Assembly: GCF_900110705.1 (NCBI RefSeq)
Contig: NZ_FOEJ01000004.1
Coordinates: forward strand, 1-64,000
Direction: 5' to 3'
From: Loktanella sp. DSM 29012
GTDB taxonomy: Bacteria > Pseudomonadota > Alphaproteobacteria > Rhodobacterales > Rhodobacteraceae
Length of the DNA stretch: 64,000 nucleotides
The translations under genes and the position numbers were made by a program. This document shows, one piece after another, positions 813-30,458 of the stretch. Each line of letters begins with the position of its first letter. The first letter of the stretch is position 1. The notes beneath the pieces are model-generated. The model ran no database searches and was not told where the DNA came from. It saw nothing but the letters and a program-made list of their open reading frames with translations.

Positions 813-816
813 TAAT

Positions 817-4600: not shown

Positions 4601-5277
4601 AGCAGTGTCGCCTCGGCCTTGATGATGCGGAAATGCGTCCCGTCATCGCGCCGCCCTTGGGAAAACAGGCCAGCAACCGGCCCGTAGATCGACATGTGAT
4701 ATGTGACCTCGGCGCGGATCGGGGGCAGGGTCTGCACCAGCGTCACCTGTGCCTCGGTCCAGACCCAATCCAGATCGACGGACACGTTTGCCCCCTCAAA
4801 CACATAGCAGGCCTTCTGCTCGACGGCGTCGCGCAGTGTTTCACCCACGGGCCCCCGCACGATGAATTCAACCGCCGCCTCGGGGTAGCGGCAATTGCCC
4901 TGTCGTTCCTGGCTGAACAGGCTGGACGGTGCAATCGGCAGCAATGCCATGCGGGCGGCAGTTTCCCACGGGACCGACCCGTCCTCTGTGGTGGGTTCGT
5001 CGCAATTCAGCGCGCCCCAGATCGCCTTGGCGGTGCCGATGGGGCTTTCTCCGGGCGCCATGATCGGCACGGGGCGGCACGAATGCACTAGCGCAGATCG
5101 CCCCGCCGCATAGGCCGCGTATTCCGTCGTCACCACAGCCTGCGCGATCAGGATCTGCTGGATCAGCGACATGGTCACGATAAACACGGGAAACAGTAGC
5201 AGGATGAACTCAATCGAAGGCAATGCACCGCGCTGGCATTTCGCAAGCCGCATCACACTTCGGAAAAGTCCTTGCAT
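4597..5277 (-). CDS. tadE: TadE-like pseudopilin
   Basis: About 226 residues. A basic leader ending RLAKCQRG is followed by ALPSIEF and a hydrophobic helix, then AAYAAGRSALVHSC, typical of TadE minor pilins that prepilin peptidase processes after the Gly; the Glu sits at about +6 rather than +5. The ectodomain contains several Cys that could form disulfides in the periplasm. I use the ATG at 5275-5277; a GTG one codon earlier is equally possible and neither has a strong ribosome-binding site. It is first in the minus-strand set TadE-TadG-toxin pilin-immunity, divergent from the plus-strand machinery genes. Minor pseudopilins like this usually prime or cap the fibre. Confidence 0.75.
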   Translation of the reverse strand: MQGLFRSVMRLAKCQRGALPSIEFILLLFPVFIVTMSLIQQILIAQAVVTTEYAAYAAGRSALVHSCRPVPIMAPGESPIGTAKAIWGALNCDEPTTEDGSVPWETAARMALLPIAPSSLFSQERQGNCRYPEAAVEFIVRGPVGETLRDAVEQKACYVFEGANVSVDLDWVWTEAQVTLVQTLPPIRAEVTYHMSIYGPVAGLFSQGRRDDGTHFRIIKAEATLL

Positions 5278-5300
5278 CACAAAACCACGAGATAAATCTG

Positions 5301-5339: not shown

Positions 5340-5387
5340 TTTTAACAGACTTTAGTTTGCGGATTTTTCAATGCTGATTTGCGTAAC

Positions 5388-7367: not shown

Positions 7368-7386
7368 TAAAACGAGGACGAATACG

Positions 7387-9957
7387 TTGCTTTTGAAACC
7401 CTATGCACGCCTTGCCCTGGTTTTTGCTCTGTCTGCCGCGCCTACCTTTGTCGCGGCCCAGATCGAAGGCAGCTGCCTAGGCTATTATGACCGACCCGAT
7501 GCGCTGGGGAGCTTCAACGCCGAAACCGGCGAAATCATCCGCAACGGGATCATTCCGGTGATGGTTGGGGCGACCCCCCTACGGGACGGTCCCGGTGCCG
7601 ACGCCACCGTGATCGGCGAACTGGTGTTCAACGAACGTATCAACCCGATTGCGCAGGACGGCGACTATATCCACGTGCGGCGCGACACGCGACCGGACTC
7701 GCCGATGCTGGGCTGGGTGGCTGCCGATGACGTGTCCTGTCGCGCCACGCCGCTGATGACCGAAGAAAACATCTCGCGCAAATTCTACATCCGCACGGCT
7801 GCCAACGCGGCCGAGGATGCGCAGGTCGGTGTCGTGCCGGTCACCGACCCCGGCGGCGATGATTGCGCGGAACTGAACGGCATCTGTCAGAGCATGACAC
7901 GTTTCCAGCGGTTCTTCATCTTTGCCGAGGACCCCGAGACGAACAGCGTCCTGCTCATGAGCTCGAACCTGTCAGAGGCACTGGAGCCACTGAATGGCTG
8001 GGTCTCCGCCGACGACGGATATCGCTGGAACACGCGACTGGGCCTGCGCCCGTCCGACAACATGGTCGTAAACGCCGATACGGGCAGCCTCGAGGTCGAA
8101 AAAGAAACGATCATGTGCGTCTACGAGACCGAAGACGCCGCGCGCGCCTCGCTCTCAACGGCTGAGGCCGAAACCGGCAATGCCTGCGACGTGCAGGTTC
8201 TGGGCGGTCCGCGCTGGTTCACGTCCAACGTGCGCCTGCCAATCATCGGCGATCTGGAAATCGACGGAGAAGATTTCTACGAAATCGCCGTGCCCGTCGC
8301 CACCGTGGGCGAGGACGGGCGCGATGCCCTGCTGGAACAGGTCGCCGGTCTGGACAACGCGATCCGTGAATTGCAGCAGCTGAAAAACCTCGATGTTTTC
8401 TTTCTCATCGACGGCACCCAGTCGATGGAACCGCATATCGAGGCGCTGATCGGCAGCGATACCGTCAAGGGCGTGATCCCGGCCATTCAGGATTCATTCG
8501 AGGGCGATCCACGCTTTTCCAATGTGACCGTCCGGTACGGTTTCCGGGTCTACCGCGACACCTATGCCGGGAATTTCGGCATCGGTGAAGGCCTGCCACT
8601 GGATCGCAACTGCACCCCGGACGAGGCCGCGCTGACCCAGAACCGCGAGACTTTCAACACGATGCTGCAAGAGATCGACACCGGTTTCGGCAGCGGCAAT
8701 GAACCCGATCCCGACCACGAAGAGGCGCTGATCGTGGCGCTTGCACAAGCGTCCGACGACATCACCGCCTGCGAGGACAACGTCAAAATGCTCTTTGTCA
8801 TCGGTGACACGGGCTATGACAGCGAAAGCCTGATTTCGCGCGGCGTGCCGGACATGCTGACGGATGAACTGGCCGTCGTGGACATGCTGGTCAACGGTGT
8901 ATCGTCCAAGACCGTGGACCCGATCATCCCGTTTTTCATCCATGTGCCAGAGGCGGCTGAGGCGCTTCAGGCAACGGGCGACCGGCTGGAACGCTACCTT
9001 AGCGCCTATCAGAAATACGAGGTGCAGGCCAAACTGATGATCGGCACCATCGGGTCGATCTATCAGGACAGCCAGCAGATCCCGGTATCGCTGGATCTGG
9101 AACAGAACTATTTCTCGATGAACGGCCAGGACAGCGACGCAGCCCAGCGCGAGCTGATCCGCATCATCACCGATCAGGTCGCCCGGTTTGGCGATCAGGG
9201 GCCGGTGACGGAAATCATCGCGGGCCTTCAGACCGGCGAGGCGCTGGTTGAAATCATCACTGCCCTGCAATCCAGCGCCAACGGGGTGCCTGCGCTGCGT
9301 CTGGCCCAGATCGAACGGCGGGTCTGCGACACGCTGGGTGATGCCTGCACCCAAAAGATCGTGTCAGACACCACGCGCGGCTATGTCCGCGCGGGCGAGG
9401 ATACGCAGGTTGACGTGCTGGTGTCGGCCGAGGAATTCGACGACTGGGGCCTGATGCTGCGCCCGCTGCGCGATGTCACCGACATGTCGGTTCCGCAGCA
9501 GTCCCAGATGATCCTGACCTCGCTGGTCAAGGGGCTGGAACGGTCGCTGGGTGAATTGTCACCCGCCGAACTGGATATGCCGTTGTCGGATTTCCTCAAC
9601 CTCAAGGCCGCCTTGCCCGCAGGCAGCGAAACCCCCCTGATGAACTACAGCCTGCGTGACTTCATCTTTGCGGCAGAAGGCGGCGGTTCGGCTGACGAGG
9701 CGATCGATTCCTGCGAGATCTATTTCGTGATCCGCTGGCTGGCCGTCAGACGCGATTTCTTTCGCGAAATCGACCGTGGCAACGTGCCGACCTTTACCAG
9801 CGCCGAAATCCCGACCGATCGGTGCGACATGCGGTATGACGGCGTGACGGACCTGACCTTCGACGACTTCAAGAGCTTTCCCGAAGACACGATGCAATAC
9901 AGCTATGTCGATCTGAACGCGCGCTGGTTCTGGATACCCAACCAGTTCCTGCCATGA
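7387..9957 (+). CDS. Secreted SH3-like and vWA domain protein
   Basis: 856 residues starting at a TTG preceded by ACGAGGACG; no nearby ATG fits. A signal peptide (ending TFVAAQ) is followed at residues 55-118 by a bacterial SH3-like domain (GATPLRDGPGADATVIGELV ... LGWVAADDVSC) and, from about 338, by a vWA domain. Its metal-site motif is DGTQS (residues 342-346), a variant of DxSxS, in LDVFFLIDGTQSMEPHIEAL. The C-terminal third is of unknown fold. vWA proteins bind partner proteins through a metal ion, and periplasmic SH3-like domains often contact peptidoglycan. Next to an ABC ATPase and FtsX-like permease, it may be the periplasmic partner that the transporter pulls on. The role is inferred. 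Confidence 0.7.
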   Translation: MLLKPYARLALVFALSAAPTFVAAQIEGSCLGYYDRPDALGSFNAETGEIIRNGIIPVMVGATPLRDGPGADATVIGELVFNERINPIAQDGDYIHVRRDTRPDSPMLGWVAADDVSCRATPLMTEENISRKFYIRTAANAAEDAQVGVVPVTDPGGDDCAELNGICQSMTRFQRFFIFAEDPETNSVLLMSSNLSEALEPLNGWVSADDGYRWNTRLGLRPSDNMVVNADTGSLEVEKETIMCVYETEDAARASLSTAEAETGNACDVQVLGGPRWFTSNVRLPIIGDLEIDGEDFYEIAVPVATVGEDGRDALLEQVAGLDNAIRELQQLKNLDVFFLIDGTQSMEPHIEALIGSDTVKGVIPAIQDSFEGDPRFSNVTVRYGFRVYRDTYAGNFGIGEGLPLDRNCTPDEAALTQNRETFNTMLQEIDTGFGSGNEPDPDHEEALIVALAQASDDITACEDNVKMLFVIGDTGYDSESLISRGVPDMLTDELAVVDMLVNGVSSKTVDPIIPFFIHVPEAAEALQATGDRLERYLSAYQKYEVQAKLMIGTIGSIYQDSQQIPVSLDLEQNYFSMNGQDSDAAQRELIRIITDQVARFGDQGPVTEIIAGLQTGEALVEIITALQSSANGVPALRLAQIERRVCDTLGDACTQKIVSDTTRGYVRAGEDTQVDVLVSAEEFDDWGLMLRPLRDVTDMSVPQQSQMILTSLVKGLERSLGELSPAELDMPLSDFLNLKAALPAGSETPLMNYSLRDFIFAAEGGGSADEAIDSCEIYFVIRWLAVRRDFFREIDRGNVPTFTSAEIPTDRCDMRYDGVTDLTFDDFKSFPEDTMQYSYVDLNARWFWIPNQFLP

Positions 9958-9973
9958 TCCGGCTGTCGGACGC

Positions 9974-10753
9974 ATGGCAGGCTGCATGACGGATTGGGGC
10001 TGCACGGTGACAGACCTCGATTTCGCACGTGGGCGTGCGGGGTCAGGCACCCAGTTCCGCATCCGCTGCGACGGACGGCTGGACATCCGCTATGCCGGTG
10101 GGAACACCAATCGCGTGCCGGTGATGGGACCATCAGGCGCGGGCAAGAGCACGCTGATGCACCTGATTTCCGCGACCACACTTCCGCAAAGCCCCAAGGC
10201 GCGGATCGCATGGACCTTTCCCGATGGGGCGCAACTGGACTGGGGGCATCGTGGCCCATCCCCGGACATGCTGGGCCGGTTGCGGCGTCGGTATTTCGGT
10301 TTCGCCTTTCAGACGCCGCATGTGCCCGAATTCATGACCATCACCGAGGCGCTGACATTTGCGCTGGAAAACCGAGGTCACAGCCGCGCTCAGGCGCGGG
10401 ATGCGGCACAGCGCAGTCTGCATTCCGCCTTTGACGGTGATGCGCAAAAGGTCGCGCGCATCGCCGCCAGCTTTCCGGGGCAGCTGTCGGGCGGGGAACG
10501 CCAGCGGACGTCCCTACTTATGGCGCTGGTGCAGGATCCGGTCGTCTTGTTCGCAGATGAACCCACGGGCAGTCTGGACGGCGAGACACGGCGCACGATC
10601 ATGGCGATGCTGACCGACTGGCTGACGCCGGAACGCATGTTGATCTGGGTTACGCACCATGACAGCGATCCCGCGGATACGGGTGCACCGCGCCGGCTGG
10701 TCGTGGCCGACGGGTCCGTGCGGTGGGATAACACAGCGGGTGTGATGGCCTGA
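9974..10753 (+). CDS. ABC transporter ATP-binding protein (FtsE/LolD/MacB type)
   Basis: About 259 residues; the start may be the ATG at 9974 or at 9986. All ABC ATPase motifs are present: Walker A GPSGAGKST, signature LSGGERQR, Walker B VVLFADEPTGSLD and the switch His in WVTHH. The ADEPTGSLD form is typical of the FtsE/LolD/MacB branch, which couples ATP hydrolysis to mechanical movement of periplasmic partners rather than to substrate import. It overlaps the following permease gene by one base (TGATG), so the pair is one transporter. It lies inside the Tad-like locus between a vWA protein and a CpaF ATPase, which is not a usual Tad component. Confidence 0.85.
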   Translation: MAGCMTDWGCTVTDLDFARGRAGSGTQFRIRCDGRLDIRYAGGNTNRVPVMGPSGAGKSTLMHLISATTLPQSPKARIAWTFPDGAQLDWGHRGPSPDMLGRLRRRYFGFAFQTPHVPEFMTITEALTFALENRGHSRAQARDAAQRSLHSAFDGDAQKVARIAASFPGQLSGGERQRTSLLMALVQDPVVLFADEPTGSLDGETRRTIMAMLTDWLTPERMLIWVTHHDSDPADTGAPRRLVVADGSVRWDNTAGVMA

Positions 10754-12648
10754 TGTTGATCCTGCGCATGGCTTGGAACGAATTGTTCCGCAGTTTTCTG
10801 CCGCGCCCGCCGGGGGGGCGCGATTTTGCATATCTGCTGGCCCTCATCGCCTTGCTGCAACTGCTGGGTATCGTGATTTTCAGCGCCAAGCTGGGGGTGC
10901 TGGAACGCTCTGTCGATGCGTTTCTGGGCAAGGTGCCGGGCTACGGCGTGCCGGTCTGGGTGCGGCAGAACTATCTGGCGGAAAACGACGCCGGTGCAAT
11001 GACCCAAGACATGGTGGACGATCTGGAGGCGCGTGGCTTTCCCGTCCAGACATTCCGGCGCACGTTTGACGGCGACCTGATCCGGTTGCCCGCGCAGGAC
11101 GTCTGGACCGAACCGCGCTTGAATGCGGAACCCGCGTTCGAGGGGATATTTGCCGACACAGACAGCGTACTGGCCGGTCAGCAACGGTCCACGGCAACAG
11201 CAACCCGTCTGTCGCAGGACGTGGTGGCGCACATGTGGTCCATCGTGCTGGACCGCGAGAATTTTGCGCAATTCCTGGATCTGGACGCCTATCGCGCGGC
11301 GCTGGCCGGGCGGGTGCCGCCCGCAGCGCTGGATGATATTCCACAAGACACCGCATCGCTGGACGACATGTCGCTGCTTTGGCTGGAAATGCGGGTCAAC
11401 GACCGCGCACATCTCGTGCCGTTTCGCGTGACTTGGGCCAATTACCTTGGCGCGGGCCATATCGCGCCCGACTTTGTCCTGCCCGCCGCGCTGCACACGC
11501 TGGAAGCAGCAGCCTCTGCCAGTCCGGGTCTGTGCCTTGATTTCAGCGCGGGGCCTGCGCCCATTGCCCCTGTAGCCGGCGTTCAAAGCCCGTCGCTATT
11601 GCTGATGTCGGCCGAGGATCGCGCCGCCCGCAGCGCGCCCATGGGGGCCGCACTGACGGACCTGCACGCGGCCATGGGCGGGTCATTGTCTGTCGCCAAT
11701 CCCAGTCGCGTATCTTGGTCAGCGCCCGACAATAGCGGCGGGACCTGTGCTGCGACCGTGCCTTGGGTTGTGGCCGCGCTCTTTGCCACCGGGGGCGATC
11801 TGGCGCTGTCGGACTGGGACGGCCTGTCACCCCAGCCTGTTCCGGATGTGGGCGTCGACGTCAGCCTCTACACGGCCCCCTGTTCTGCGATCAATCCACG
11901 CGAGCGGGCCTTTGCCCTTGGCGCGACCGATTCCGCGCAATCGTCCTGCGGCGATGATCCGATCACGATCGAAACGGCGAACGCATCCTCGGGCTATGAC
12001 GAAATGCTTGTCTTTGCCGAAGACCGGATCGGCCTGGATGGCCTGGTGTCCGTCATTTCCTGTGATGGCGTCACGTCGGGTGCGCTGGATGATACGCTGT
12101 GCATGCCCCTTGCCAGTGCATCTGATGAGAGTGGAGATCAGGCGACCGAGAGCCGGATCGCCATACACAATATCTACCGCGACAGCCTTATGCGCTTTGG
12201 CTTCTTGTCACGCCTGATCGATGCGGTGTCCGGGCCGGTCGGCTGGTCGCTGGTCGGTCTGGGCGTCGCAATCCTGTGGGTGCAGTTGGGAACCGTGCTG
12301 GGTCACCGGCGCGGGCAATATGCGACGCTGATCGTGGGTGGCTTGTCGCCGCTGCAGATCGTCGTGCTGGTCTGCACGCAGGTGGCGATGTGCGTTGTGC
12401 TGGGGCTGGCCGTGGCGTTTGGCCTGTTTGTTGCCATTCGGGCGACGCTCTTTGGCGCGATCCGCGCGCTGTCGACGGAATATGACCGGATTGCGCTGGG
12501 CGAAATGCTGGATGTTTTGCCGGTCCCTGCATTAGGACTCCTCGCGTTCCTCGGTTTCATGTTATTGATCGGGTGGGCGCTGACCTATCTGCAATTGCGA
12601 TCCAAGGGTGTGTCCCGCGGCGGCGTGATCGACCGCTTGATGGAATAG
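10753..12648 (+). CDS. FtsX/MacB-like permease of the Tad-locus ABC transporter
   Basis: 631 residues. One membrane helix near residues 23-45 (YLLALIALLQLLGIVIFSAK), a periplasmic domain of about 450 residues with several Cys, then three helices between about 495 and 620 (GWSLVGLGVAILWVQLGTVL and beyond). This 1+3 layout with a large first periplasmic loop is the FtsX/MacB arrangement. The last residues are cytoplasmic. Together with the ATPase just upstream it would form a mechanotransmitting complex; the neighbouring SH3-vWA protein is a candidate periplasmic partner. The periplasmic domain shows no family I recognise. Confidence 0.75.
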   Translation: MLILRMAWNELFRSFLPRPPGGRDFAYLLALIALLQLLGIVIFSAKLGVLERSVDAFLGKVPGYGVPVWVRQNYLAENDAGAMTQDMVDDLEARGFPVQTFRRTFDGDLIRLPAQDVWTEPRLNAEPAFEGIFADTDSVLAGQQRSTATATRLSQDVVAHMWSIVLDRENFAQFLDLDAYRAALAGRVPPAALDDIPQDTASLDDMSLLWLEMRVNDRAHLVPFRVTWANYLGAGHIAPDFVLPAALHTLEAAASASPGLCLDFSAGPAPIAPVAGVQSPSLLLMSAEDRAARSAPMGAALTDLHAAMGGSLSVANPSRVSWSAPDNSGGTCAATVPWVVAALFATGGDLALSDWDGLSPQPVPDVGVDVSLYTAPCSAINPRERAFALGATDSAQSSCGDDPITIETANASSGYDEMLVFAEDRIGLDGLVSVISCDGVTSGALDDTLCMPLASASDESGDQATESRIAIHNIYRDSLMRFGFLSRLIDAVSGPVGWSLVGLGVAILWVQLGTVLGHRRGQYATLIVGGLSPLQIVVLVCTQVAMCVVLGLAVAFGLFVAIRATLFGAIRALSTEYDRIALGEMLDVLPVPALGLLAFLGFMLLIGWALTYLQLRSKGVSRGGVIDRLME

Positions 12649-12658
12649 GAGGGCGGAA

Positions 12659-12787
12659 ATGAGCCTGGAATACGTAATTATCCTTGCGGTGTTCGGTGTG
12701 CCGATCATGGTCCTGATGATCCGGCTGACCATTTCGCTCATGCTCTATTGGCGCATCGCCGAAGGCGTGTGGATGCTGCCGCTATGA
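12659..12787 (+). CDS. 42-residue single-pass membrane microprotein
   Basis: ATG at 12659 is preceded by a strong site (AGGAGGGCGGAA) and opens a 42-codon frame. The peptide starts MSLEYVIILAVFGVPIMVLM and ends in YWRIAEGVWMLPL, one hydrophobic helix with an Arg in its middle and a short amphipathic tail. Its stop overlaps the start of the CpaF gene (ATGA at 12784-12787), which argues for translational coupling and therefore for a real gene. It has no prepilin leader (no Gly-Glu pattern), so it is unlikely to be a pilin. A small subunit that holds the ATPase or ABC permease at the membrane is possible. Family unknown. Confidence 0.6.
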   Translation: MSLEYVIILAVFGVPIMVLMIRLTISLMLYWRIAEGVWMLPL

Positions 12788-13965
12788 ACGGCATGCTGGA
12801 TGATTTTGTAGTCATTGGCGCAAGCGAAAGCGACGACGAGGTTTTCGCAAGATACCATGCGCAGGTCATCCAGGGACTGTTGGGCCCAATCGCCCCCTAT
12901 TATGGCGACCCCGAGGAAAAAGACCCGGAACGCCGGAAAATGGCTGATTCCGTTCAGGAAATCATGATCAATGGCCCGGATGAGATCTATGTCGAATTGT
13001 CGGGCAAACTGACCCGCCTGCCGGGTGCCAGTTTCGGAGAGCCTGAGAACCTGACCGCGCTGGCCCGTGCGATCCTGCAATATGCAGGCAAACGCCTTGA
13101 TCCCAACGACCTGTCGATCGAGGCGCGCACCCCCGAAAAGCACCGGGTTCATATCTTGCAGGCCCCGGCCGCGCGGCCCGGTCTGTCGATGGCGATCCGC
13201 AAGTTTCCAAAGGACCGCATCAGCCTTGATATGCTGCGCGAAAAGGGGTCATTCAGTGCGGCAGCACAGGATTATCTGCGCGTGGCGATGGAACAGCGTC
13301 GGAACCTGCTGGTGTCGGGCGGCACCGGTTCGGGCAAGACGACGATTCTGAACGCCCTGTCCGAAATGATCGCCCCAGATGATCGCGTTCTGATCATCGA
13401 GGATACCACCGAAATCCGGTTCGAGGATGATCGTCACGTCCTCCAGCTCGAGGCGCAGAAACCGACCGAACACGGCGACGGTGGCATTTCGATCCGCGAC
13501 CTGCTCAAGGGGTCGCTGCGGATGCGCCCTGACCGGGTCATCGTCGGCGAATGCCGCGCGGGCGAGGCGCTGGACATGGTGCAGGCAATGAATACCGGCC
13601 ACGCAGGATCGATGTCGACCGTGCACGCCAACAGCCCGGTCGATTGCCTTGCCCGCGTCGAAACGCTGTGCCTGATGTCGGGGGTGGACATGCCGCTGGT
13701 CGCGCTGCAACGCCAGATCGCGGCGGCGGTCGAGGTTGTCGTTCAGATTTCGCGTGTGCGGGGTTTTCGACGGGTGGTCGAGATTTCCGAGGTCCGCGGA
13801 TTGGACCCCGAAACGAACTATTACCAGATGGCCCTGATCTTTAACTTGCAGCCCGATAAGGACGGCCCCAACGGCAAGTCATTGATGTGGACAGGAGAAA
13901 TGCCGACCTTTCCCGAATTGCTGCCCGAGGAGATCAGCGAACTTACGCGATTGTGGCAAAAATAA
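12784..13965 (+). CDS. cpaF: CpaF/TadA-type secretion ATPase (no FHA domain)
   Basis: 393 residues from the ATG at 12784. The N-terminal half contains the CpaF domain (GPDEIYVELSGKLTRL); the C-terminal half is a type II/IV secretion ATPase with Walker A GGTGSGKTT (near residue 180), acidic IIEDTTEI, and RPDRVIVGECRAGEALDMVQ followed by NTGHAGSMSTVHAN, the Walker B and His-box region. It powers assembly or retraction of the pilus from the cytoplasmic face of TadB/TadC. The ATG used overlaps the stop of the preceding microprotein, and a longer frame upstream lies inside that gene. A second, FHA-fused CpaF lies 1.2 kb downstream, so this locus has two ATPases. Confidence 0.9.
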   Translation: MNGMLDDFVVIGASESDDEVFARYHAQVIQGLLGPIAPYYGDPEEKDPERRKMADSVQEIMINGPDEIYVELSGKLTRLPGASFGEPENLTALARAILQYAGKRLDPNDLSIEARTPEKHRVHILQAPAARPGLSMAIRKFPKDRISLDMLREKGSFSAAAQDYLRVAMEQRRNLLVSGGTGSGKTTILNALSEMIAPDDRVLIIEDTTEIRFEDDRHVLQLEAQKPTEHGDGGISIRDLLKGSLRMRPDRVIVGECRAGEALDMVQAMNTGHAGSMSTVHANSPVDCLARVETLCLMSGVDMPLVALQRQIAAAVEVVVQISRVRGFRRVVEISEVRGLDPETNYYQMALIFNLQPDKDGPNGKSLMWTGEMPTFPELLPEEISELTRLWQK

Positions 13966-14040
13966 GAAAAAATGCTTTTAACAAGCAGACTTCCGCTTAT
14001 AATAAGACAATCTTTAATTGATTCTTCGAAGGAGTACGAG

Positions 14041-14202
14041 ATGGGTCCTGGAGATATTCTGAAAATCGGCGTCATTGTTTTGCCGCTGGTCATGTTTCTT
14101 GCTTATGTTGGCACGGCTGTGGTGGACAACACCAAGACAGCTGGCACCAGCATGGACTCGGCCGCTGATGGCCTGTCCAGCACGGCCGGTTCTTCTTGGT
14201 AA
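14041..14202 (+). CDS. Short Flp-sized membrane peptide lacking a prepilin leader
   Basis: 53 residues from the ATG at 14041, behind a good site (GAAGGAGTACGAG). The sequence MGPGDILKIGVIVLPLVMFL leads into a helix and a small Ser/Ala/Asp-rich tail ending GSSW. Length and hydrophobic pattern match a mature Flp pilin, but the basic leader and the Gly with Glu at +5 are missing. It directly precedes a true Flp-like prepilin and its tail is Flp-like in composition. It could be a minor pilin inserted without processing, or a chaperone-like partner of the pilin. TATAAT at about 13994-13999 upstream is a possible -10, but no good -35 stands at the right distance. Confidence 0.55.
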   Translation: MGPGDILKIGVIVLPLVMFLAYVGTAVVDNTKTAGTSMDSAADGLSSTAGSSW

Positions 14203-14211
14203 GGCAATCCG

Positions 14212-14409
14212 TTGCGTAAATTCATAGACGTCGCGGCGCGTATTTTGCGCGATGACCGCGGCGTCACCTCGCTTGAGGCAGTCCTGATACTTGGTGTCGT
14301 GTCCGTGCCTTTGGTGACGTTCCTCGCATTGGCGGGAACCAAATTCATCGTATGGATGCGGTCGCAGGCACCCAACATCTTCGATGAGGCCGAAACTTTC
14401 ACCTTCTAA
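14212..14409 (+). CDS. Flp-type prepilin
   Basis: 65 residues from a TTG start nine bases after the previous stop, with AAGG in range. The leader MRKFIDVAARILRDDRG is followed by VTSLEAVLILG: Gly 17 at the cleavage site and Glu at +5, the class III (Flp/TadE) prepilin signature, then a single hydrophobic helix and a short tail. The prepilin peptidase encoded at 26727-27218 would be the processing enzyme. It is the best candidate for the major pilin of the system. The Glu-Tyr pair seen in many Flp pilins is absent (here Glu-Ala). Confidence 0.75.
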   Translation: MRKFIDVAARILRDDRGVTSLEAVLILGVVSVPLVTFLALAGTKFIVWMRSQAPNIFDEAETFTF

Positions 14410-14426
14410 GTCGGGTTGGTCACTTC

Positions 14427-15131
14427 ATGAAATACGTGGCAATGATCGTCGTTGGGCTTTTGCTGGGCGGGGTCGCCGGATACATGTCGTGGCAGCGCAT
14501 GGCCGAAATCGAGGCCGTGAATGATGCACCCGCCTATCTGGTGTTGCGGGCCGACTTGCCTGATGCCTTTCTAGAGGCCGGCAGTCAGTTGCGCCCCGAA
14601 CACCTGACATCGGTCCAGATACCGGAAACCGGTGGCAATCTTGGCGATTATGCCTTTCCGGACAGTGCCGCTACACGTCAGTTCGTGACACTGCAGCCGA
14701 TCAACATGCGTCTGCCGCGCGGTCGCATTCTGACCCGCGACCTGTTCGAGGATGTTGCCGAAACCCGTCTGGACCAGGTGATCACACCGGGCATGCGTGC
14801 CCTGACCATTTCCGTCGATACCAAGAGCGCGCTGAACTATCAGGTGGCCCCCGGCAACCGCGTCGACCTGATCGGCGTGCGGTCCAACCTCGCCGGGTCA
14901 GAGGCCGAAATCCTGATGGAAGACGTCAAGGTCATCGCGGTGGGCGACATGTTCAGCTACGACGAATGGCTGGCGTCGGGACGCGACAATTATTCGACCC
15001 TGACCCTTGAAATGACGCCACAGGACGCGCTGGCCCTGTCACAGGCGACACCCGCCCTTGACGGTCCCGTGTCCGTGGTCCTGCGCAGCCAGTGTGACAC
15101 TGACGCCGCGACGGACCCGGGATGCCTGTGA
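14427..15131 (+). CDS. cpaB: CpaB/RcpC-like pilus assembly protein with SAF domain
   Basis: 234 residues. An N-terminal anchor (MKYVAMIVVGLLLGGVAGYM) is followed by a SAF-like region (VLRADLPDAFLEAGSQLRPE ... LPRGRILTRDLF) and the CpaB core (ITPGMRALTISVDTKSALNY, VAPGNRVDLIGV). CpaB proteins sit in the periplasm of Tad systems, normally next to the secretin CpaC. No secretin follows here: the next gene is the FHA-CpaF ATPase. The C-terminus has two Cys close to the end. It lies 17 bases after the prepilin gene, in the same operon. Confidence 0.85.
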   Translation: MKYVAMIVVGLLLGGVAGYMSWQRMAEIEAVNDAPAYLVLRADLPDAFLEAGSQLRPEHLTSVQIPETGGNLGDYAFPDSAATRQFVTLQPINMRLPRGRILTRDLFEDVAETRLDQVITPGMRALTISVDTKSALNYQVAPGNRVDLIGVRSNLAGSEAEILMEDVKVIAVGDMFSYDEWLASGRDNYSTLTLEMTPQDALALSQATPALDGPVSVVLRSQCDTDAATDPGCL

Positions 15132-15144
15132 AGGTGGTCTAGAC

Positions 15145-17058
15145 ATGGAACTGGTCCTTGAGGTTCGGCACGGCAAGAAACCACTCGTGCGTCACCCTCT
15201 GGGCCGTGCCACTTATGTTCTGGGCTCTGGTGAAAATAGCGAACTTGGCGCGCCGATCACGATCCATTCCGACCGGGTGAAACCCAACCACGCCGTTCTC
15301 GAATACACCTCGCTGGGGTGGTATCTGACGCCCCGCCAGACGGGCGTGCGGCTTGATACCGTCAACATCCTGCCGGTCAACGAACGCCGCAAGATCAGCA
15401 GCGATGCGGCATTCGCCATTGCCGACGTCAGTTTTCAGCTGGTGTCGCCCACCGGTGCCAATCGGCAGGACGATGCCGCAGTCACCACGCCAAAGGCCGT
15501 GTTTGACGAACTGGTGTCGGATATCCAGCAGCGCACAAGCCGCGACACCGAACGCCGCGCCTCGACCGGCGAAATGGAACGCGACGATCCGTTCTATCGT
15601 CAGAAAATCCTGCCCTTCATCGAAGGACACCTGCGCACCGCCCTGTCGCAAGTGTCTCAGGATCTGTTCGAAAATTACGCGCACGAAACTCTGCGCCGCG
15701 AGTTGGTGCTGCGCCTGCTGGGGCATCCGGGGTTGCTGCGCAAGGCGCTGGGCGCTGAAATCACCGAAGGCGACCGCACGGGCGTCGACCGGCTGGCCAA
15801 GGAACTGCTGGATGATATGGGGATCGATACCGCCCCGAACCGCCGCCCGCAGAAACTGGACATCCTGTCGAAACAATTCGCCAAGGTCTTTTCGCGCCGC
15901 ATGATGACCTTCAGCCGCGCGCTGCTGGACAAGATCGTTGCCGAAAGCGTGCGTTTTTCGGTCGTGGCGGCGATGGACGGTGTTGGGCCTCTCGAGGCGC
16001 TGATGGCGATCGAGGACATCAACGAGGTCATGGTCGTGGGCTATGACAAGGTGTTCGTCGAAATTGACGGCAAACTCGTGCTGTCCGGTCTGGCCTTTCG
16101 CTCGCCAGGCGAGGCGCTGACCACGGCCCAGAAAATCGCGACCCGGTCAAATACCAGCGTTGAAAAACAGCACCCCTATCGTGACGCCCGTCTGCCGGAC
16201 GGCAGCCGCGTCAATATCGTCATCGACCCGATCGCGCTGTCGGGCACCACCATCACGATCCGCAAATTCCGCCCCAAGGCGCCGAATCTGTTGTTCCTGC
16301 GTCGCAAGGAAAGCCTGTCCAGCGCCATGGCAAGCTTTCTCAAGGGGTGCGTGGTCTCGAAAAAGAACATCCTCGTCGCGGGCGGCACCGGCACCGGCAA
16401 GACGACGATCGTGAACTACCTCGCATCCATGATCCCGCCTGACGAACGCATCGTCACGGTCGAGGATACCGCCGAACTCAAGATTTCGGAAAAGGACGGT
16501 GGCCGTCTGCCCCATGTCGTCACCATGCAGGGCGTCGCCCCGACCGGCGACAGCAAGGGGCATTCGATCCGCGATCTGGTGCACAACGCGCTGCGGATGC
16601 GGCCCGACCGCATTATCGTCGGGGAATGCCGTGGTGGCGAGGCGTTCGATATGTTGCAGGCCATGAACACGGGTCACGAAGGATCGATGACGACGCTTCA
16701 CGCCAATGATCCGACCGAAACCGTGGCACGTCTGGAAAACCTCGTGCTTAGCGCGGGTGAGGGTCTGCCCCTCGAGGCGATCCGCTATCAGGTGGCCGCC
16801 GCCATTGATTTCATCGTGCAATTGCACCGCTACGCCGACGGTCGCAAAAAAATCTCCGCCATCGCCGAGGTTGGCGCGGTCGATCCCGTCACGGGCCGGA
16901 TCGAGGTCAACCCGATCTTTGAAACCTATTACAATCCCGTGCGCCCCGATCTTGGGACGCGGTTTACCTTTGCCGGGCGCACGCCCGTGGCAATCCGCGA
17001 AATCATCGACGGCGGGTTCAACCCCCGCCGCCTGAAATTCGGAAACCGGAATGTTTGA
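15145..17058 (+). CDS. FHA-domain CpaF fusion secretion ATPase
   Basis: 637 residues from the ATG at 15145 behind GAAGGTGG; a longer frame upstream overlaps cpaB and is not needed. Residues 1-105 form an FHA domain (a GSGENSE strand-loop, then [14 protein letters not shown]), which binds phosphothreonine. After a linker, residues from about 150 make a full CpaF protein: [20 protein letters not shown], Walker [10 protein letters not shown] near 413, [29 protein letters not shown] and the [12 protein letters not shown] box. An FHA head on the pilus motor implies control by Thr phosphorylation. FHA-bearing CpaF proteins are known from some Tad-like systems. The start of TadB overlaps its last eight bases. 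Confidence 0.9.
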
Positions 17059-17947
17059 ACAAAACGCCCCAGTGATCCTTGCCCTCGGGCTTGCCGTCGG
17101 CATCGCAATGGCCGTGATCGGCCTGTTCCTGTTGCTGCGCCCCTGGCTCGAGGGCATGTTCGCGCAGATCATCACATCCTATGACAACCGCTTTGTGTTT
17201 GTACTGCAATGGCGCCCGCTGACGGTGAACATGCTGTGGGTCATTCTGGCGTTCATCTGCATTGTCTCACTCTTGATGGGGTTGCTGTTCGGCCGGTCCA
17301 GCGGCTGGCCCTTTGGCATCGTCGCGGCCATCGTCACCGGGTTCATCATGGTGCTGGTGCCGCTTGCCGTGGCCACCCCGGCGTTCGAGTTGTCCCGTCG
17401 CAAGCGGGGCAGGGACATTGACAATGGCCTGCCCGGTCTGCTGCAACAGCTGTCTGCGAACCTCGCCAACAACAAGAATGTGGGCCTCGCCCTCGAAGAG
17501 GTGTCGCGCACGGCACCGCCGCCGCTGGACTATGAACTGCGCCTGCTGGCGCAAAAGGAACGCGATCTGGGGTCCCTGCCGATGGCGCTGGACGACGCGG
17601 CGGAACGGGTCAAATCGGACTGGTTCGCCGTGACGGCAGCGGTGCTGAAAACCACCAACGAACGCGCCAGTTCCGAATCCGAGGTGTTGCAGAACCTCAG
17701 CCGCGTCTTTGCGCAGCAGCGTGCCATGCGTGACCGGATCGACACCGCGACCCGCCAAGGTGAGACATCGATGCGGATCATGCTGGTGGTGCCCTTTCTG
17801 GTGGTGGCCATCGCCCCCTTTGCCCTGCCAGAGGCGACATGGGACACCGCCGATATGGGCATCCTCTGGACCGTCGTGACATTCGGCATCCTGCTTGCGT
17901 TTACCGCAATCGGGCTGGCCTGGTATTTCAAGGCGCAAGACATATGA
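17051..17947 (+). CDS. tadB: TadB-like inner-membrane platform protein
   Basis: 298 residues. Membrane helices near residues 8-30, 57-75 and 80-105, then a cytoplasmic T2SSF domain (LPGLLQQLSANLANNKNVGL, with ALEEVSRTAPPPLDYELRLL following) and two further helices at the C-terminus. TadB and TadC form the inner-membrane platform that the CpaF motor acts on. The ATG overlaps the end of the FHA-CpaF gene, and its stop overlaps the TadC start (ATGA at 17944-17947), the usual motor-TadB-TadC order. Confidence 0.85.
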   Translation: MFEQNAPVILALGLAVGIAMAVIGLFLLLRPWLEGMFAQIITSYDNRFVFVLQWRPLTVNMLWVILAFICIVSLLMGLLFGRSSGWPFGIVAAIVTGFIMVLVPLAVATPAFELSRRKRGRDIDNGLPGLLQQLSANLANNKNVGLALEEVSRTAPPPLDYELRLLAQKERDLGSLPMALDDAAERVKSDWFAVTAAVLKTTNERASSESEVLQNLSRVFAQQRAMRDRIDTATRQGETSMRIMLVVPFLVVAIAPFALPEATWDTADMGILWTVVTFGILLAFTAIGLAWYFKAQDI

Positions 17948-18816
17948 CCCCTGCCGTGATGATCCCGCTGATTTCGGCCCTTGGCCTGATGCTCGTCGGT
18001 ATCGGCGTCGTGGGCCAGGTCTGGAATCCCGCGCGCAAGTATCTGACGATCTACCGCGACGTCGCCCCGTCCTATGGCCCGGTGCAGGCCATGGTGATTG
18101 CCGGGGCAGGGGGCCAGATGCGGGCCGACATGGACGCCTCGCTTGACGCCAGTCTCAGCAGCGAACCGCATCGCCTGCTGGGGGTGACGGAACAATCCTA
18201 CAAATCATCCATGCTGGTGAACGGCGTCATTCTGGGCGCGATCGTGGCCGTGCTGTCATGGCCGACACTGGGCCTGATCGGTGCGCTGATCGCGGGGATC
18301 TGTTTTAGCGTGCTGGGGTCGGTCCTGTTGCAATGGACCCTGGTCGACAGCCTGAAACAGGCGCATGTGAAACAGGCCCGCCAATTCCCGTTCTTTCTGG
18401 ATATCTTCTTGCTGACGGTGCAGTCGGGCGGCGGTCTGGACGACGCCATCGCCATGTATCTCAAGGTGTTTGGCCGTGATCCGCTGGGCCGCGAACTGAA
18501 TATTCTGGCTGAGACATTCCGCGCCTCAAACGAAGAAGAAAGCTTTTTGCGACTGTCCGCCCGCGTCGGCGACCCCGAGCTGAAAAAGGCGATTGGCGAA
18601 CTGGCGCAGAAGCTGCGCAGCGGTGTCGAAATGGCCGCCACGCTCGAAGCGCAGCGCAACGACCTGCGCGCCATGCGCGAGGAACACGCCGCCAAGATTG
18701 CCGAGGCGCTGAATGCCAAGTTCATGATCTGCGTTGTGCTGGCGGCGGCCTCCGTGTTCCTGATTATCCTGTCCCTGCCGGTTGCGACCCTGATGGGCAG
18801 CAACGTGGTCTTTTGA
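17944..18816 (+). CDS. tadC: TadC-like inner-membrane platform protein
   Basis: 290 residues from the ATG at 17944, which overlaps the TadB stop. An N-terminal helix, two central helices (residues about 90-140), a T2SSF domain (FPFFLDIFLLTVQSGGGLDD, with MYLKVFGRDPLGRELN following) and a C-terminal helix (FMICVVLAAASVFLIILSLP). It pairs with TadB as the platform of the pseudopilus. The next gene starts within its stop codon (TTGA). Confidence 0.85.
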   Translation: MTPAVMIPLISALGLMLVGIGVVGQVWNPARKYLTIYRDVAPSYGPVQAMVIAGAGGQMRADMDASLDASLSSEPHRLLGVTEQSYKSSMLVNGVILGAIVAVLSWPTLGLIGALIAGICFSVLGSVLLQWTLVDSLKQAHVKQARQFPFFLDIFLLTVQSGGGLDDAIAMYLKVFGRDPLGRELNILAETFRASNEEESFLRLSARVGDPELKKAIGELAQKLRSGVEMAATLEAQRNDLRAMREEHAAKIAEALNAKFMICVVLAAASVFLIILSLPVATLMGSNVVF

Positions 18817-21800
18817 TCCGCCTGGCAACCATAGGGGCGTTTTGCGTCGGCCTGTCGCTGCCCGCGCTCGCCGTGGCGCAACAGTCGGACGTTCCGCTGT
18901 CGGCGCTTGCGCTGGTCTTTGACGAAAACGGCATGACATCTGACGCGATACCCAATGCCGATGTGGCCATTGACGGGTTCGTGTCCACCGCGATCGAATG
19001 GGGCATTCCGCGCGACCGCCGTCGGTTCCTGTTGAACCCGGCCCAGACGACGGTCGAGGATGCGCTGATCGCACTGGCCGAAACCGCAGCCCCCGACGAA
19101 CGTGTGCTGGTCTATATCCACGGTGCGGCCTTCAGCCTGGTGGGTGCCGATGATGTTCGCATCCTGACGGCGGGCACGCGGTTCGACGGTCAGTTTGCCG
19201 CGCGGCTGGCGCTGCGACGTCTTGAACGCGGCAGCCTGCCAGTCTCCCGGATGAAAGAGGATCTGTTGGCCTTTGGCTTTGGTCAGGCACAGGTCATCGT
19301 CGCGGCCTGCGCCACTGACCCCGTTGACGCGGATTTGCGCGCGGCCCTCGATGACCAGATCGCAGAGGTGTCCTGTCCGGATACCATTACCCATGATGGC
19401 ATCGTCTTTGCCGATCCGGCTATGATGGATTTCGGCATCTGGGAAACCCTTGCCGCGCGCGACCCGGCTGATCTGTTCGATGATGCGGACACGCTGCCCG
19501 CCCTGTTTCGTCAAGCCGGTGACCCGTCGCCCGAGACCCCGCCAGCGCCTACGGCAGAGGATCCCCCCGCAACCGCCGACATCGCGGATGAACCAGACAC
19601 AGTCACGTCGCCCGCGCCAGAGGAGGCACTAGCTGCCGATGACGCCCCCGCCCAGACGGATCCCGCACCGGTCGCGGCAGCGGAACTTGCGCCAGAGGCA
19701 GCGCCTGAACCCGCGCCGGAGGCAACGCCTGAACCTGCCCCGGAGCCAGAGACCGCTGAACCGGCACCGTTGCCAGTGATTGCCGGCGTACGTGAAACCG
19801 ACGGCGATGCGTGGCGCGTGGTCTGGGCCGGGCTTCAGGATGCGCCGGATTGTCAGGGGCTCGTCGATTTTCAGGTGCAGTTTCCGCAGACGCCTGTCAG
19901 CCTGATGTTCCTGCCCGGCATGATCACCCAGCATTGTCCGGATGGTCCTGTGCCGCCGACGCCGGGATTGACCGCTGCCCCGCAAACGGCCCCAGAACCA
20001 GAACCAGCCTCGGACGACCCGGCCACGGTGACCGCAGACACCGTTGTCGCCACCGATGAACCCGCCCCCAGCGACGTGTTGCCCGTCGCGGAACGTGCCG
20101 CAGAAGCCTGGCAGGTTGCCTGGGACGCGCTTCAGGGGACGACCGACTGCACCGGCTACCGCGTGTTCATGCGCGACCATGCCGACAGCCTGATGGCCTT
20201 GCTTGGCGCACCGGGTGCAATCGCGCGCTACTGCACGGACGAGGATCTGGCGATCCCGCTGCCGCCGCGTTCCGCCCTGCCCGACGCGCCGCCCGCCGAA
20301 GACTCTGCGGTGGTGCTGCTGCCGCCAGAGCCCGAGGCAACGGATGCCGCTGATGATACGGCTGCACCCACGGTCACCGATCTGCGTGATGATCTGCGTG
20401 CCATCAGTCTGATCATTGACAGTTTCGACGCGCCATCCCTGCCTGACCGCAGCTTTGACGCGGGTCGCAGGGCTTTTGATCGTTTCGTCGCGCAAATGGG
20501 GGGCGATCCAGCAGCCATTACCACTGCTGTGGATGCTGCCGATTTTGCGCAGGTCCTGCAGACCGATCCGGATGCCGCACCGGTGACCGAGGTGCTGGTC
20601 TATCTCGCAGGACAGATGGCCGTGACCGCCGGCGACAACCGGCTGTGGATGCTGCCTGCGGATTTCGATTTCGATACGCCGCAGCGCCGTGCGCTGCCGC
20701 CGGGGGATTTCCGCGACACCGCCTTTGACGTGACAGCGGCCCTTTCGGACCTGTCCGAGGCGACCGGCGCACGGGTTCTGGCCATGATCGAGGATTGCCG
20801 CCCGCCTGCCAAACCCGACGTTCCCGGGAACATCGACCTGTGGCCCTATATTGCTGATGACAGCGGCTGTGCGCGGGTGTCGGGTGCTGCGAATGTCATC
20901 GTGTTCAACGGTCAGGATCACAGCCAGCCTGATACCGAGACAGGCGCGATGCTCGACGTTCTGACCGGGATCGTTCAGGACGCACCGGATCTGTCGTTGC
21001 GCTTTGTGCGGGACAGGGTGATGGTGGCACTTCCCGATATCGGCAACCGTGCGGTCGCGGATGATCTCGACTTGCTGGCCGTAGCCCGCGATGCAACCGG
21101 CGTGCTGGACAGCTGCCTGCGCCCGGTGGCCGATGGCGACACCGTGACCTGTGTCGATTTCGAGGGGCAGCCGGTCACATCACCGATCCTCGCGGCACTG
21201 TCCGCGCCGCGCCCCGAGACGGCACCACCCGCGCCCCCCACCGACCCGGAGTCCGTTCTGTCACCGCGCGACATCGCCTATGCCGCGGCCGAGGGGGCGG
21301 ACACCTGTGCGGGTTGGGATGGATTTTTGCTGGCCTATCCCGACCTTGCCGAACAGGGTGACGCAGTGGCGCGCCGTGATCGGGCCTGCCTGCTGGCGCG
21401 CGCCCGTGCGGCATCCGACCTGTGCACGGTGTCGGGCGACGACGAGCTGACCCTGACACGGGACGGGACACGGGCGCTACAGGATGCTCTGCTTGAAAAC
21501 GCCTGCTGGCCGGGCGTGATCGATGGTCTGTGGGGCCAACGCACGGCGACGGCGCTGGATCAATTCGTGACCGAGGCGCTGGGCGGTGCGACGCTGGCGG
21601 GCTGGGCCGGCGACGGCAGACCCGGCTGCACCACGCTATTTGCATTGCAGGATTTCGACAGCGACGCAGGGGCTTGCACATTGACCTGCCCTGCCGGTTT
21701 CGAGATCAGCGGCGATACCTGTGCGCCCGTGCAGGTCGCGGCCCCGCCGCCCGCACCGCGTCCGGCTGCGCCGACACCTTCTGCACCACGCCCTGCCGCC

Positions 21801-21926
21801 GCCGCCCCGCGGGCCCAACCCGCACCCGCACCTGCCCCAGTTGCCCGTCAACCCGCCCCGGCACCTGCACCTGCACAGCCCTGCGTCGGTTTCAATTGCC
21901 CCGGGGCCGGAGTCGGGACATTCTGA
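18813..21926 (+). CDS. Large periplasmic protein with two caspase-like segments and a peptidoglycan-binding-like region
   Basis: 1037 residues from a TTG overlapping the tadC stop; a signal peptide ends ALAVAQQ. Residues 90-200 resemble a peptidase C14 (caspase/metacaspase) core: VLVYIHGAAF with His 103-Gly, then QVIVAACATD with Cys 166, a plausible His-Cys dyad. A Pro/Ala/Glu-rich linker contains two related WxVxWxxLQ...DC units (about 330 and 430). Residues 520-750 repeat the caspase-like pattern (TEVLVYLAGQ ... RVLAMIEDCR), but the His is replaced, so this copy looks inactive. Near 890-930 TRALQDALLENACWPGVIDG followed by LWG resembles a PG_binding_1 motif; the tail is Pro/Ala-rich. The fold calls are by eye. 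It may be a periplasmic scaffold or protease of the delivery system. Confidence 0.6.
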   Translation: MIRLATIGAFCVGLSLPALAVAQQSDVPLSALALVFDENGMTSDAIPNADVAIDGFVSTAIEWGIPRDRRRFLLNPAQTTVEDALIALAETAAPDERVLVYIHGAAFSLVGADDVRILTAGTRFDGQFAARLALRRLERGSLPVSRMKEDLLAFGFGQAQVIVAACATDPVDADLRAALDDQIAEVSCPDTITHDGIVFADPAMMDFGIWETLAARDPADLFDDADTLPALFRQAGDPSPETPPAPTAEDPPATADIADEPDTVTSPAPEEALAADDAPAQTDPAPVAAAELAPEAAPEPAPEATPEPAPEPETAEPAPLPVIAGVRETDGDAWRVVWAGLQDAPDCQGLVDFQVQFPQTPVSLMFLPGMITQHCPDGPVPPTPGLTAAPQTAPEPEPASDDPATVTADTVVATDEPAPSDVLPVAERAAEAWQVAWDALQGTTDCTGYRVFMRDHADSLMALLGAPGAIARYCTDEDLAIPLPPRSALPDAPPAEDSAVVLLPPEPEATDAADDTAAPTVTDLRDDLRAISLIIDSFDAPSLPDRSFDAGRRAFDRFVAQMGGDPAAITTAVDAADFAQVLQTDPDAAPVTEVLVYLAGQMAVTAGDNRLWMLPADFDFDTPQRRALPPGDFRDTAFDVTAALSDLSEATGARVLAMIEDCRPPAKPDVPGNIDLWPYIADDSGCARVSGAANVIVFNGQDHSQPDTETGAMLDVLTGIVQDAPDLSLRFVRDRVMVALPDIGNRAVADDLDLLAVARDATGVLDSCLRPVADGDTVTCVDFEGQPVTSPILAALSAPRPETAPPAPPTDPESVLSPRDIAYAAAEGADTCAGWDGFLLAYPDLAEQGDAVARRDRACLLARARAASDLCTVSGDDELTLTRDGTRALQDALLENACWPGVIDGLWGQRTATALDQFVTEALGGATLAGWAGDGRPGCTTLFALQDFDSDAGACTLTCPAGFEISGDTCAPVQVAAPPPAPRPAAPTPSAPRPAAAAPRAQPAPAPAPVARQPAPAPAPAQPCVGFNCPGAGVGTF

Positions 21927-21966
21927 TGCGACACACCGCCGCCAGCCGGAACTGTATAGGTCACTT

Positions 21967-22758
21967 ATGCCAAGAAACCTGATTTTGACCGTCGAACACG
22001 GGACCGCCAGTACGGGGCGCAAGCTGACCTTGTCTGATGGTCGCCCCAGTATCGGTGGCCGTGGGTCCGGTGCCACGCACGAACTGGTCGATGTGCCTGC
22101 CGGTCTGGTTTATCTGCAATTCGAACGCAGCGAGGATGACTGGTTCGTCGAAGAGGTGACCAACGGTGCCGCGCGGTTGAACGACGGCCCGCTGCGCCGC
22201 ACGAACAAGCTGGCGGCGGGCAACGTACTGACCCTTCCGCGCAGCGATCAGGCGGGCGCTGTGCAGCTGAGCGTGCGGTTCAAGTCGGAACGCGCCGGTT
22301 TCACCATGCCGACCGCGCGTGAATTCATGGACGGTCCCTATTTTTACGGTCTGGCACTCGTCTGCATGATGATCGCGGGCCTGCTATTCATGGCGATTCA
22401 GGATCAACCTGGCACCGGGGGCGAGGGGCTGACACCCGCCATCATCGAAGAAGAGGTGATCGCCCTGCTGCGCGACGAAACCGGAGAGGTCGCGCGCGAT
22501 CTGCCGGGTGGCCAGCCGCGCACCTTGCAAGAGGCGCGACTGGCCCTGCGCGGCGCACCCGATGCCGAAACCCGCGACCGTATCGCTGCCGATTATGCCA
22601 GCGAGGTGATCGTACTGATGAGCGAGGCGCGCCGTCTGGAACGGATGCGCCTCTATGACGAGGCGCGGGCGGCCTATTCGCAGGTTGTCACGCGTGTGGG
22701 CGATCTGGACGCCCGTGTCTCGCAAACTGCCCTTCAGGCGCTGAACCGCCTCAACTAG
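21967..22758 (+). CDS. Membrane protein with N-terminal FHA-like domain
   Basis: 263 residues from the ATG at 21967. Residues 1-105 have an FHA-like beta pattern (LTLSDGRPSIGGRGSGATHE, then LVYLQFERSEDDWFVEEVTN and ARLNDGPLR), though the usual Ser-x-x-His is not clear, so phosphopeptide binding may be lost. One membrane helix lies at about 123-144 (FYGLALVCMMIAGLLFMAI), so the FHA part is cytoplasmic and the C-terminal 115 residues are periplasmic, with a helical TPR-like stretch (ARRLERMRLYDEARAAYSQV). It sits ten bases before the pseudokinase gene; the two may form one membrane signalling unit with the FHA-CpaF motor. Confidence 0.65.
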   Translation: MPRNLILTVEHGTASTGRKLTLSDGRPSIGGRGSGATHELVDVPAGLVYLQFERSEDDWFVEEVTNGAARLNDGPLRRTNKLAAGNVLTLPRSDQAGAVQLSVRFKSERAGFTMPTAREFMDGPYFYGLALVCMMIAGLLFMAIQDQPGTGGEGLTPAIIEEEVIALLRDETGEVARDLPGGQPRTLQEARLALRGAPDAETRDRIAADYASEVIVLMSEARRLERMRLYDEARAAYSQVVTRVGDLDARVSQTALQALNRLN

Positions 22759-30374: not shown

Positions 30375-30458
30375 TTTGGTTTATTCTTTGGCACCTACGG
30401 GGGCCTTCACATCAGGGTCCGCGTCAGTGGACCCGCCAAGCAAACGGAAGAAGCTAAC

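Follow-up and report, generated by a model that had tools for sequence, protein, structure and literature searches.

Published accounts give Tad pili one ATPase motor with both functions (PMC12019362, PMC6711533), and a single CpaF can both extend and retract (PMC12019362). In Denise et al. 2019, the platform is the duplicated Tad component, and other, rarer ATPase duplications are speculated to serve retraction (PMC6668835). The Kil system has one ATPase fused to a forkhead-associated (FHA) domain, a short secretin, and split gene clusters (PMC8460266), and its pili carry interchangeable minor-pilin tips according to Herrou et al. 2025 (PMC12075869). Furthermore, alphaproteobacterial CpaF proteins are almost exclusively of class II in Yen et al. 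2025 (PMC12019362). No account of a Tad locus with two paralogous motors was found in searches of open-licence papers, PMC8383342, PMC11300603, and PMC10934763 among them. The locus analyzed here lies in the first 64,000 nucleotides (forward strand) of contig NZ_FOEJ01000004.1 of Loktanella sp. DSM 29012 (RefSeq assembly GCF_900110705.1), a stretch called the window below, and contains a plain CpaF motor (S) and a CpaF motor with an extra head (L). The first-pass annotation of this DNA had noted that most Tad loci have one bifunctional motor, and against the published view of a single motor the pair is indeed unusual. As described below, the locus belongs to a two-motor Tad class that recurs and is not a single-genome oddity.

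Both motors scored strongly on the Pfam family T2SSE (PF00437), with E values of 3.6e-48 for S and 6.2e-49 for L, and both contained the Walker A, Asp box, Walker B, and His box motifs; the frames read earlier as a 393-residue plain CpaF and a 637-residue fusion were thus recovered, and both motors are intact by motif. Encoded alongside them are single copies of CpaB, TadB, and TadC and an A24 prepilin peptidase (E = 3.8e-9). The Tad hallmarks found were the CpaF-type ATPase, the split TadB and TadC platform, and CpaB/RcpC; the Flp-like (Flp_Fap), TadE-like, and TadG-like proteins were all under the Pfam cut-offs, and the three minor-pilin-like genes lay on the opposite strand. Across the whole genome, T2SSE matched at four places and T2SSF at six, the latter forming three pairs; CpaB was found twice and a secretin once. 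Two further CpaF-type motors lay in separate Tad-like loci, C7 and C18, and the CpaF of C7 adjoined TadB/TadC as L does in the window. The genome therefore has three Tad-like loci, and the one in the window combines two motors with a single platform pair and contains no secretin.

Phylogenetic analysis, proposed in the first-pass annotation as a check on the two ATPase domains, placed them in different deep classes. In a tree of 133 CpaF core rows, the S clade comprised 47 rows, including the plain motor of the window, and the L side comprised 86 rows, including the headed motor, the canonical CpaF of the same genome, and motors of other phyla. The split had a Shimodaira-Hasegawa-like approximate likelihood ratio test (SH-aLRT) support of 100 in this tree; the S group stayed together with an SH-aLRT of 100 in a 98-row tree with GspE-type rows, and the split received 100/100 (bootstrap/SH-aLRT) in a 62-row tree of chosen rows, from which the divergent third motor of locus L116 was left out. 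The branch between the classes was 0.41 to 0.56 long. Motor frames covering fewer than 260 profile positions were dropped from the first tree, and one motor, L124, was L by hidden Markov model (HMM) score and S in the trees, a placement already known when the S group of the 62-row tree was named. The Walker A pattern was matched in 31 of 36 S rows and 43 of 45 L rows; a stricter earlier pattern matched fewer. On the S profile, L motors scored 277 to 371 bits and GspE/PilB-type proteins 38 to 64 bits. The approximately unbiased (AU) test rejected a sister relationship of the two window motors, the pattern that a recent local duplication would leave (P = 0.00028), and also rejected a single clade of the seven alphaproteobacterial S and seven L motors (P = 0.0018); derivation of the alphaproteobacterial L motors from the resident CpaF was not rejected (P = 0.0545). 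By these trees, S and L are old paralogues and not products of a local duplication.

The pair recurs widely. At least 18 of 82 loci, namely, the best 80 of a profile search of other genomes' contigs plus those of genomes G333 and G359, held two or more motor frames, and 14 of the 18 combined S with L, although in one of them L was a fragment at a contig edge, assigned to its class from the HMM score alone. Loci with both motors were found in Alphaproteobacteria, Myxococcota, Planctomycetota, Verrucomicrobiota, and Lentisphaerota, and one Polyangiaceae genome had three, with motors about 4.3 to 4.4 kb apart from start to start. Close orthologues of the window S motor were rare, occurring in two of nine genomes of the genus. 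Genome counts rest on the best few candidates scored per genome: S was found in 4 of 295 family genomes, including that of the window (897, 332, 309, and 290 bits versus 271 for the next, plus the tree), in 2 of 385 class genomes, and in 3 of 398 phylum genomes (676, 460, and 448 bits versus 363 for the next), and an L-type partner was present in the same four family genomes. Among plasmids, 89 records had the Rhizobium S motor (88 Rhizobium and 1 Neorhizobium) and 89 had the L motor, and the two sets had identical breakdowns by organism and mobility (60 of each listed; breakdowns rather than single accessions compared). The set on pRL11 of Rhizobium johnstonii 3841 included S (RL_RS32605), the mini-peptide discussed below (RL_RS41075), a small protein, an A24 peptidase, TadE/TadG, Tad, and third-pilin genes, a protein of no assigned role, CpaB, L (RL_RS32645), two platform proteins, and an FHA protein. 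On Neorhizobium galegae pNgVX (L235), the L, TadB, and TadG frames were interrupted and S was open, apparently a decaying two-motor locus. A candidate from G025 was dropped; its short protein was only a distant motor relative (30% identity over part).

In all 20 mapped S-plus-L loci, one TadB and one TadC were found, directly after L (local profiles; stretches of 11 to 40 kb, some cut by contig ends), and S and L therefore probably serve the same machine. Twenty of the 21 S-bearing genomes examined also yielded an L motor, the exception being a Granulosicoccaceae metagenome-assembled genome with S on a 4.2-kb contig; a 22nd genome of that set, Chloroploca, was an L-only comparison. In addition, S and L distances were correlated over 20 pairs (Mantel r = 0.875, P = 1e-4), as well as within 8 myxococcal pairs (r = 0.718, P = 0.0022) and 7 alphaproteobacterial pairs (r = 0.52, P = 0.0114). 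The earlier note had named separate transcripts and different pili as grounds for refutation. There may indeed be two transcription units, given the 75-nucleotide gap after the S gene and the divergent S genes of relatives; no sign of two pili was seen, because only one TadB/TadC pair was found. A search of 12500-15200 for sigma-70 promoters and terminators gave none beyond chance (1 versus 1.3 and 1 versus 2.2, respectively, in shuffles).

The best explanation of the whole, to which we give an even chance, is a single Tad-type (type IVc) pilus machine in which two old paralogous motors would act on one TadB/TadC platform. L, which adjoins TadB/TadC, would be the core motor driving extension, and S, little more than an N-terminal domain and the ATPase core, would be an added motor, most likely for retraction; this last assignment is tentative and falls slightly short of an even chance. 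A split between extension and retraction had been suggested in the first-pass annotation, and a division of labor is the most economical reading, given the age of the pair, its recurrence in several phyla, and the single platform pair that the two motors have in common. Which motor does which is taken from the position of L and the shorter N terminus of S, by analogy with PilB and PilT, two ATPases of which one has an extra N-terminal part and one is minimal. The median number of open residues before Walker A was 184 in S (31 rows) versus 342.5 in L (44 rows), and in most loci examined the S motors started shortly before an EIMING motif. Furthermore, a mini-peptide preceding S may couple it to the pilus base. 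A hydrophobic peptide, mostly of 40 to 45 amino acids, preceded or overlapped S in 10 of 11 proteobacterial loci (not in G276; 4 of the 11 were close Rhizobium-type relatives), and in the window, G135, and G333 it started with MS(I/L)EY, which we take to resemble a mature Flp pilin without its leader. No convincing counterpart was found in 15 loci outside Proteobacteria, where small open reading frames (ORFs) in L123, L169, and Poly2 were judged to be chance.

Several observations weigh against this explanation. Because L motors are common, their presence alongside S says little on its own, and the Mantel correlation includes the effect of species relatedness. Four of the 18 multimotor loci were not S plus L; L150 and L155 had two L-type motors, and L165 and L170 had L with partial frames. 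For Bdellovibrionota and Myxococcaceae, where S and L lay on different contigs or far apart, a shared machine is an assumption. The S gene of G333, G359, and Rhizobium belonged to a separate gene group that diverged from the L operon; S followed ABC/FtsX/vWA genes in Rhizobium L1K21, G333, and the window and might serve that module. The N-terminal ranges overlapped, with 13 of 44 L rows having 260 or fewer open residues and 7 of 31 S rows having more, part of the overlap arising from the use of stop-to-stop frames. The GspE-type outgroup branch was 4.23 long, too distant to root the S versus L tree, and rooting with GspE/PilB relatives was uninformative. Finally, no secretin was found at the locus, and the only secretin match in the genome lay in the C7 Tad locus; that secretin might be shared with the window locus.

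Among the alternatives, the most credible, though unlikely, is that S is a helper that forms mixed hexamers with L or boosts force, as PilU aids PilT (PMC6711533). The near-constant presence of L in S-bearing genomes, the covariation of S and L distances, and the four ATPase motifs of the window S motor all fit such a helper; the long branch between the classes and the shorter N terminus of S disfavor shared hexamers, and the stand-alone S genes of Bdellovibrionota suggest separate assembly. It is distinctly less probable that S stands beside Tad genes by history and serves another device, such as a different pilus or the neighboring ABC/FtsX/vWA module. The grouping of S with the SH3/vWA, ABC, and FtsX genes and its divergence from the L operon in several relatives would be explained in this way, but no FtsX or vWA relative was found in the mapped myxococcal, planctomycete, and lentisphaerote loci, where the sole ABC ATPase, in one Polyangiaceae locus, was separated from S by about 11 kb; moreover, the Rhizobium johnstonii 3841 locus consists of S and a small Tad set with no annotated ABC genes in 18 kb, and no second platform was found. 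That each motor is bifunctional and the two take turns according to conditions, with the FHA-type head tuning only L, is very unlikely: a single CpaF is able to work in both directions (PMC12019362) and L motors of other phyla carry FHA heads above the Pfam cut-off, but no FHA match was found in the three S motors scanned, most S rows had a shorter N terminus, and a redundant motor should not have remained this different in one phylum after another.

Gating of one ATPase by phosphothreonine signaling had also been proposed. The FHA head claimed on the 637-residue motor was weak by sequence: it scored E = 0.019 and 15.9 bits on PF00498, under the cut-off of 20.7 bits, with no FHA match at 0.01. 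The fold itself was borne out by modeling. In a model of the head from seven alphaproteobacterial heads (mean predicted local distance difference test [pLDDT] score of 79), FHA domains took ranks 1 to 4 among solved matches (best E = 1.3e-4), with the YscD cytoplasmic domain lower; the model of the whole L motor was poor (pLDDT of 54), so the head was modeled alone, and the best solved match of the L model was TadA/CpaF. By model, then, the head has an FHA fold. The phosphothreonine-binding motifs of FHA domains are GR, SRxH, and N(G). Where the reference heads, those of four L motors passing the cut-off (Polyangiaceae, Planctomycetota, Acidobacteriota, and Corallococcus), have GR, SRxH (SKxH in one), and NG or NS, the window head has GS, KPNH, and QTG, and the full motif set was present in none of the window head and its six alphaproteobacterial relatives (G333 included), all of which align as FHA type. 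The binding motifs being absent, gating is not supported here. Likewise, the neighboring proteins annotated as a pseudokinase and an FHA-membrane protein were large membrane proteins with no Pfam kinase or FHA match. Heads that retain the motifs are borne by L motors in Myxococcota, Planctomycetota, and Acidobacteriota; judged from these sequences, FHA-type gating may be ancestral to these L motors and looks lost here, and what is left of the head may act as a docking fold. Two further L-type proteins had unusual architectures. A Bdellovibrio L motor (L206:8611-10779) had a ParA/MinD-like head (CbiA, 4.1e-15) where others carry FHA, and a 1,536-residue frame of Candidatus Wallbacteria (L179:2683-7290) scored 1,230 bits on the L profile and perhaps holds several fused motor domains.

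The third minor pilin of the locus carries a C-terminal Colicin-DNase/WHH nuclease domain (residues 593 to 699) on a TadE-like pilin. In the sister genome G004, whose other locus proteins were 89 to 100% identical to those of the window, the first 541 residues were common (96%) and were followed by a different end in each genome; DNA identity was 95.8% over window positions 3200-1329, followed by divergence. The G004 tip matched no Pfam family and is assumed to be toxic. Past the toxin gene and a 133-residue ORF, a 293-nucleotide piece was 94.2% identical to the G004 tip end and the DNA following it, a remnant as expected of cassette displacement. The layout of polymorphic toxins, a kept N terminus and an exchangeable C terminus, is thus present, and the 133-residue ORF, which had no family match, is by its position a candidate immunity gene. 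In six other mapped two-motor alphaproteobacterial loci, the third pilin had 211 to 244 residues (open frame) and no such extension. Residues 1 to 539 of the toxin pilin had no match on plasmids, and in 394 family genomes the protein was found only in the window and as a relative in G1082. That relative (L236:13157-16015) had a long C terminus with a GHSMGG motif; a lipase tip was rejected there (Lipase_3 E = 0.057, below the cut-off), and no motor was read within 59 kb. In the window genome and its sister, the third minor pilin thus bears an exchangeable C-terminal tip, here a nuclease, and this tip makes it fairly probable, from sequence, that the pilus is used for contact-dependent antagonism.

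The features of the locus are collected in Table 1. The genes at 5379-12648 (the protein secreted by eye, the SH3/vWA protein, and ABC/FtsX) accompany S in G333; Rhizobium L1K21 has all but the first of them together with S. Beyond the Tad genes, an autotransporter-like ORF (27346-30153) and the ribosomal genes rplB and rpsC (30303-32681) were identified by eye, so that by eye the Tad island borders a ribosomal operon.

Table 1. Features of the two-motor Tad locus (window coordinates)
Feature	Position	Strand	Basis
Orphan remnant of a different toxin tip	90..382	-	94.2% DNA identity to G004 tip end and DNA after it
Candidate immunity gene, 133 aa, overlapping toxin gene end	429..830	-	Position; no Pfam family
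Third minor pilin with C-terminal nuclease	817..2916	-	TadE-like N terminus by eye and relatives; Colicin-DNase 7.5e-22, WHH 4.5e-16
TadG-like minor pilin	2840..4600	-	PF13400 E = 0.015, below cut-off; relatives have a homologue close to S and L
TadE-like minor pilin	4597..5280	-	PF07811 E = 0.042, below cut-off; homologues in relatives
Protein without Pfam family, secreted by eye	5379..7367	+	Homologue beside S in G333
SH3 and weak vWA protein	7387..9957	+	vWA E = 0.11, below cut-off; homologues in G333, Rhizobium L1K21
ABC ATPase	9974..10753	+	PF00005 1.9e-17
FtsX-like permease	10753..12648	+	Pfam E = 5e-4, below cut-off
Leaderless mini-pilin-like peptide, 42 aa	12659..12787	+	4-nt overlap with S start; small hydrophobic ORF there in relatives
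S-class CpaF motor, plain, 393 aa from ATG	12784..13965	+	T2SSE, trees, motifs
Flp-like small protein, 53 aa	14041..14202	+	No Pfam match
Flp-like pilin with leader, 65 aa	14212..14409	+	PF04964 E = 0.074, below cut-off
CpaB/RcpC	14427..15131	+	PF16976 5e-16
L-class CpaF motor, 637 aa from ATG; degenerate FHA-fold head (about residues 1-101)	15145..17058	+	T2SSE, trees, head model
TadB platform	17051..17947	+	PF00482 7.7e-10
TadC platform	17944..18816	+	PF00482 8.5e-6
Large protein, secreted by eye	18813..21926	+	No Pfam family above cut-off
Membrane protein by eye; FHA head per first-pass annotation	21964..22758	+	No Pfam match
Large membrane protein, pseudokinase-like by eye only	22769..26101	+	No Pfam match
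A24 prepilin peptidase	26727..27218	+	PF01478 3.8e-9

Taken in full, the picture would be of a two-motor Tad class in at least five phyla with S as a dedicated retraction motor convergent with PilT, an exchangeable toxin tip in the window genome and its sister, and an overlooked, unlinked S in Kil-type predators; as a conjunction of all these parts it is doubtful. If it is true, the window pilus would be fired and withdrawn with an exchangeable toxin as its tip pilin. How one ATPase both extends and retracts Tad pili is an open question, and a natural two-motor class would let extension and retraction be separated genetically; the pRL11 locus of Rhizobium johnstonii 3841 is a compact version of it. 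The findings also suggest that a second motor is worth seeking in the predatory Kil system. In addition, a pilin with a toxin attached suggests polymorphic toxins as a cargo that Tad pili can bear; neither a toxin-fused Tad pilin nor this delivery route was found in searches of open-licence papers.

Compared with the Tad/Cpa system of Caulobacter crescentus, the locus has in common the CpaF core, CpaB, TadB/TadC, the A24 peptidase, and, weakly, TadE/TadG-like and Flp-like pilins; Caulobacter has one bifunctional motor, whereas the window has two paralogous motors and no secretin in the locus. The Kil system of Myxococcus xanthus (KilF) is likewise Tad-like, with an FHA-fused motor and minor-pilin tips with variable ends (PMC8460266, PMC12075869). 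Contact killing is carried out by Kil and suspected for the window pilus; against the single ATPase, short secretin, and split clusters of Kil, the window has two motors, no linked secretin, and one locus, its FHA fold is degenerate, and its tip pilin is fused to a nuclease, none such being described for Kil in the accessible parts of PMC8460266 and PMC12075869. The class III (FHA) CpaF proteins of Yen et al. 2025 share the FHA-fold head and CpaF core, but the window host is alphaproteobacterial and its head is without the phosphothreonine motifs (PMC12019362). The FHA-bearing motor of Corallococcus, which lies beside a secretin and is KilF-like by layout only, was of the L class, with a separate S elsewhere in the genome. 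In Corallococcus and other Kil-type predators of the Myxococcaceae (L205 and L218), S was on a contig other than that of the KilF-like motor and secretin. The PilB/PilT pair of type IVa pili offers the same arrangement of one ATPase with an extra N-terminal part and one minimal ATPase; S is a CpaF relative, so that any likeness to PilT would be convergent.

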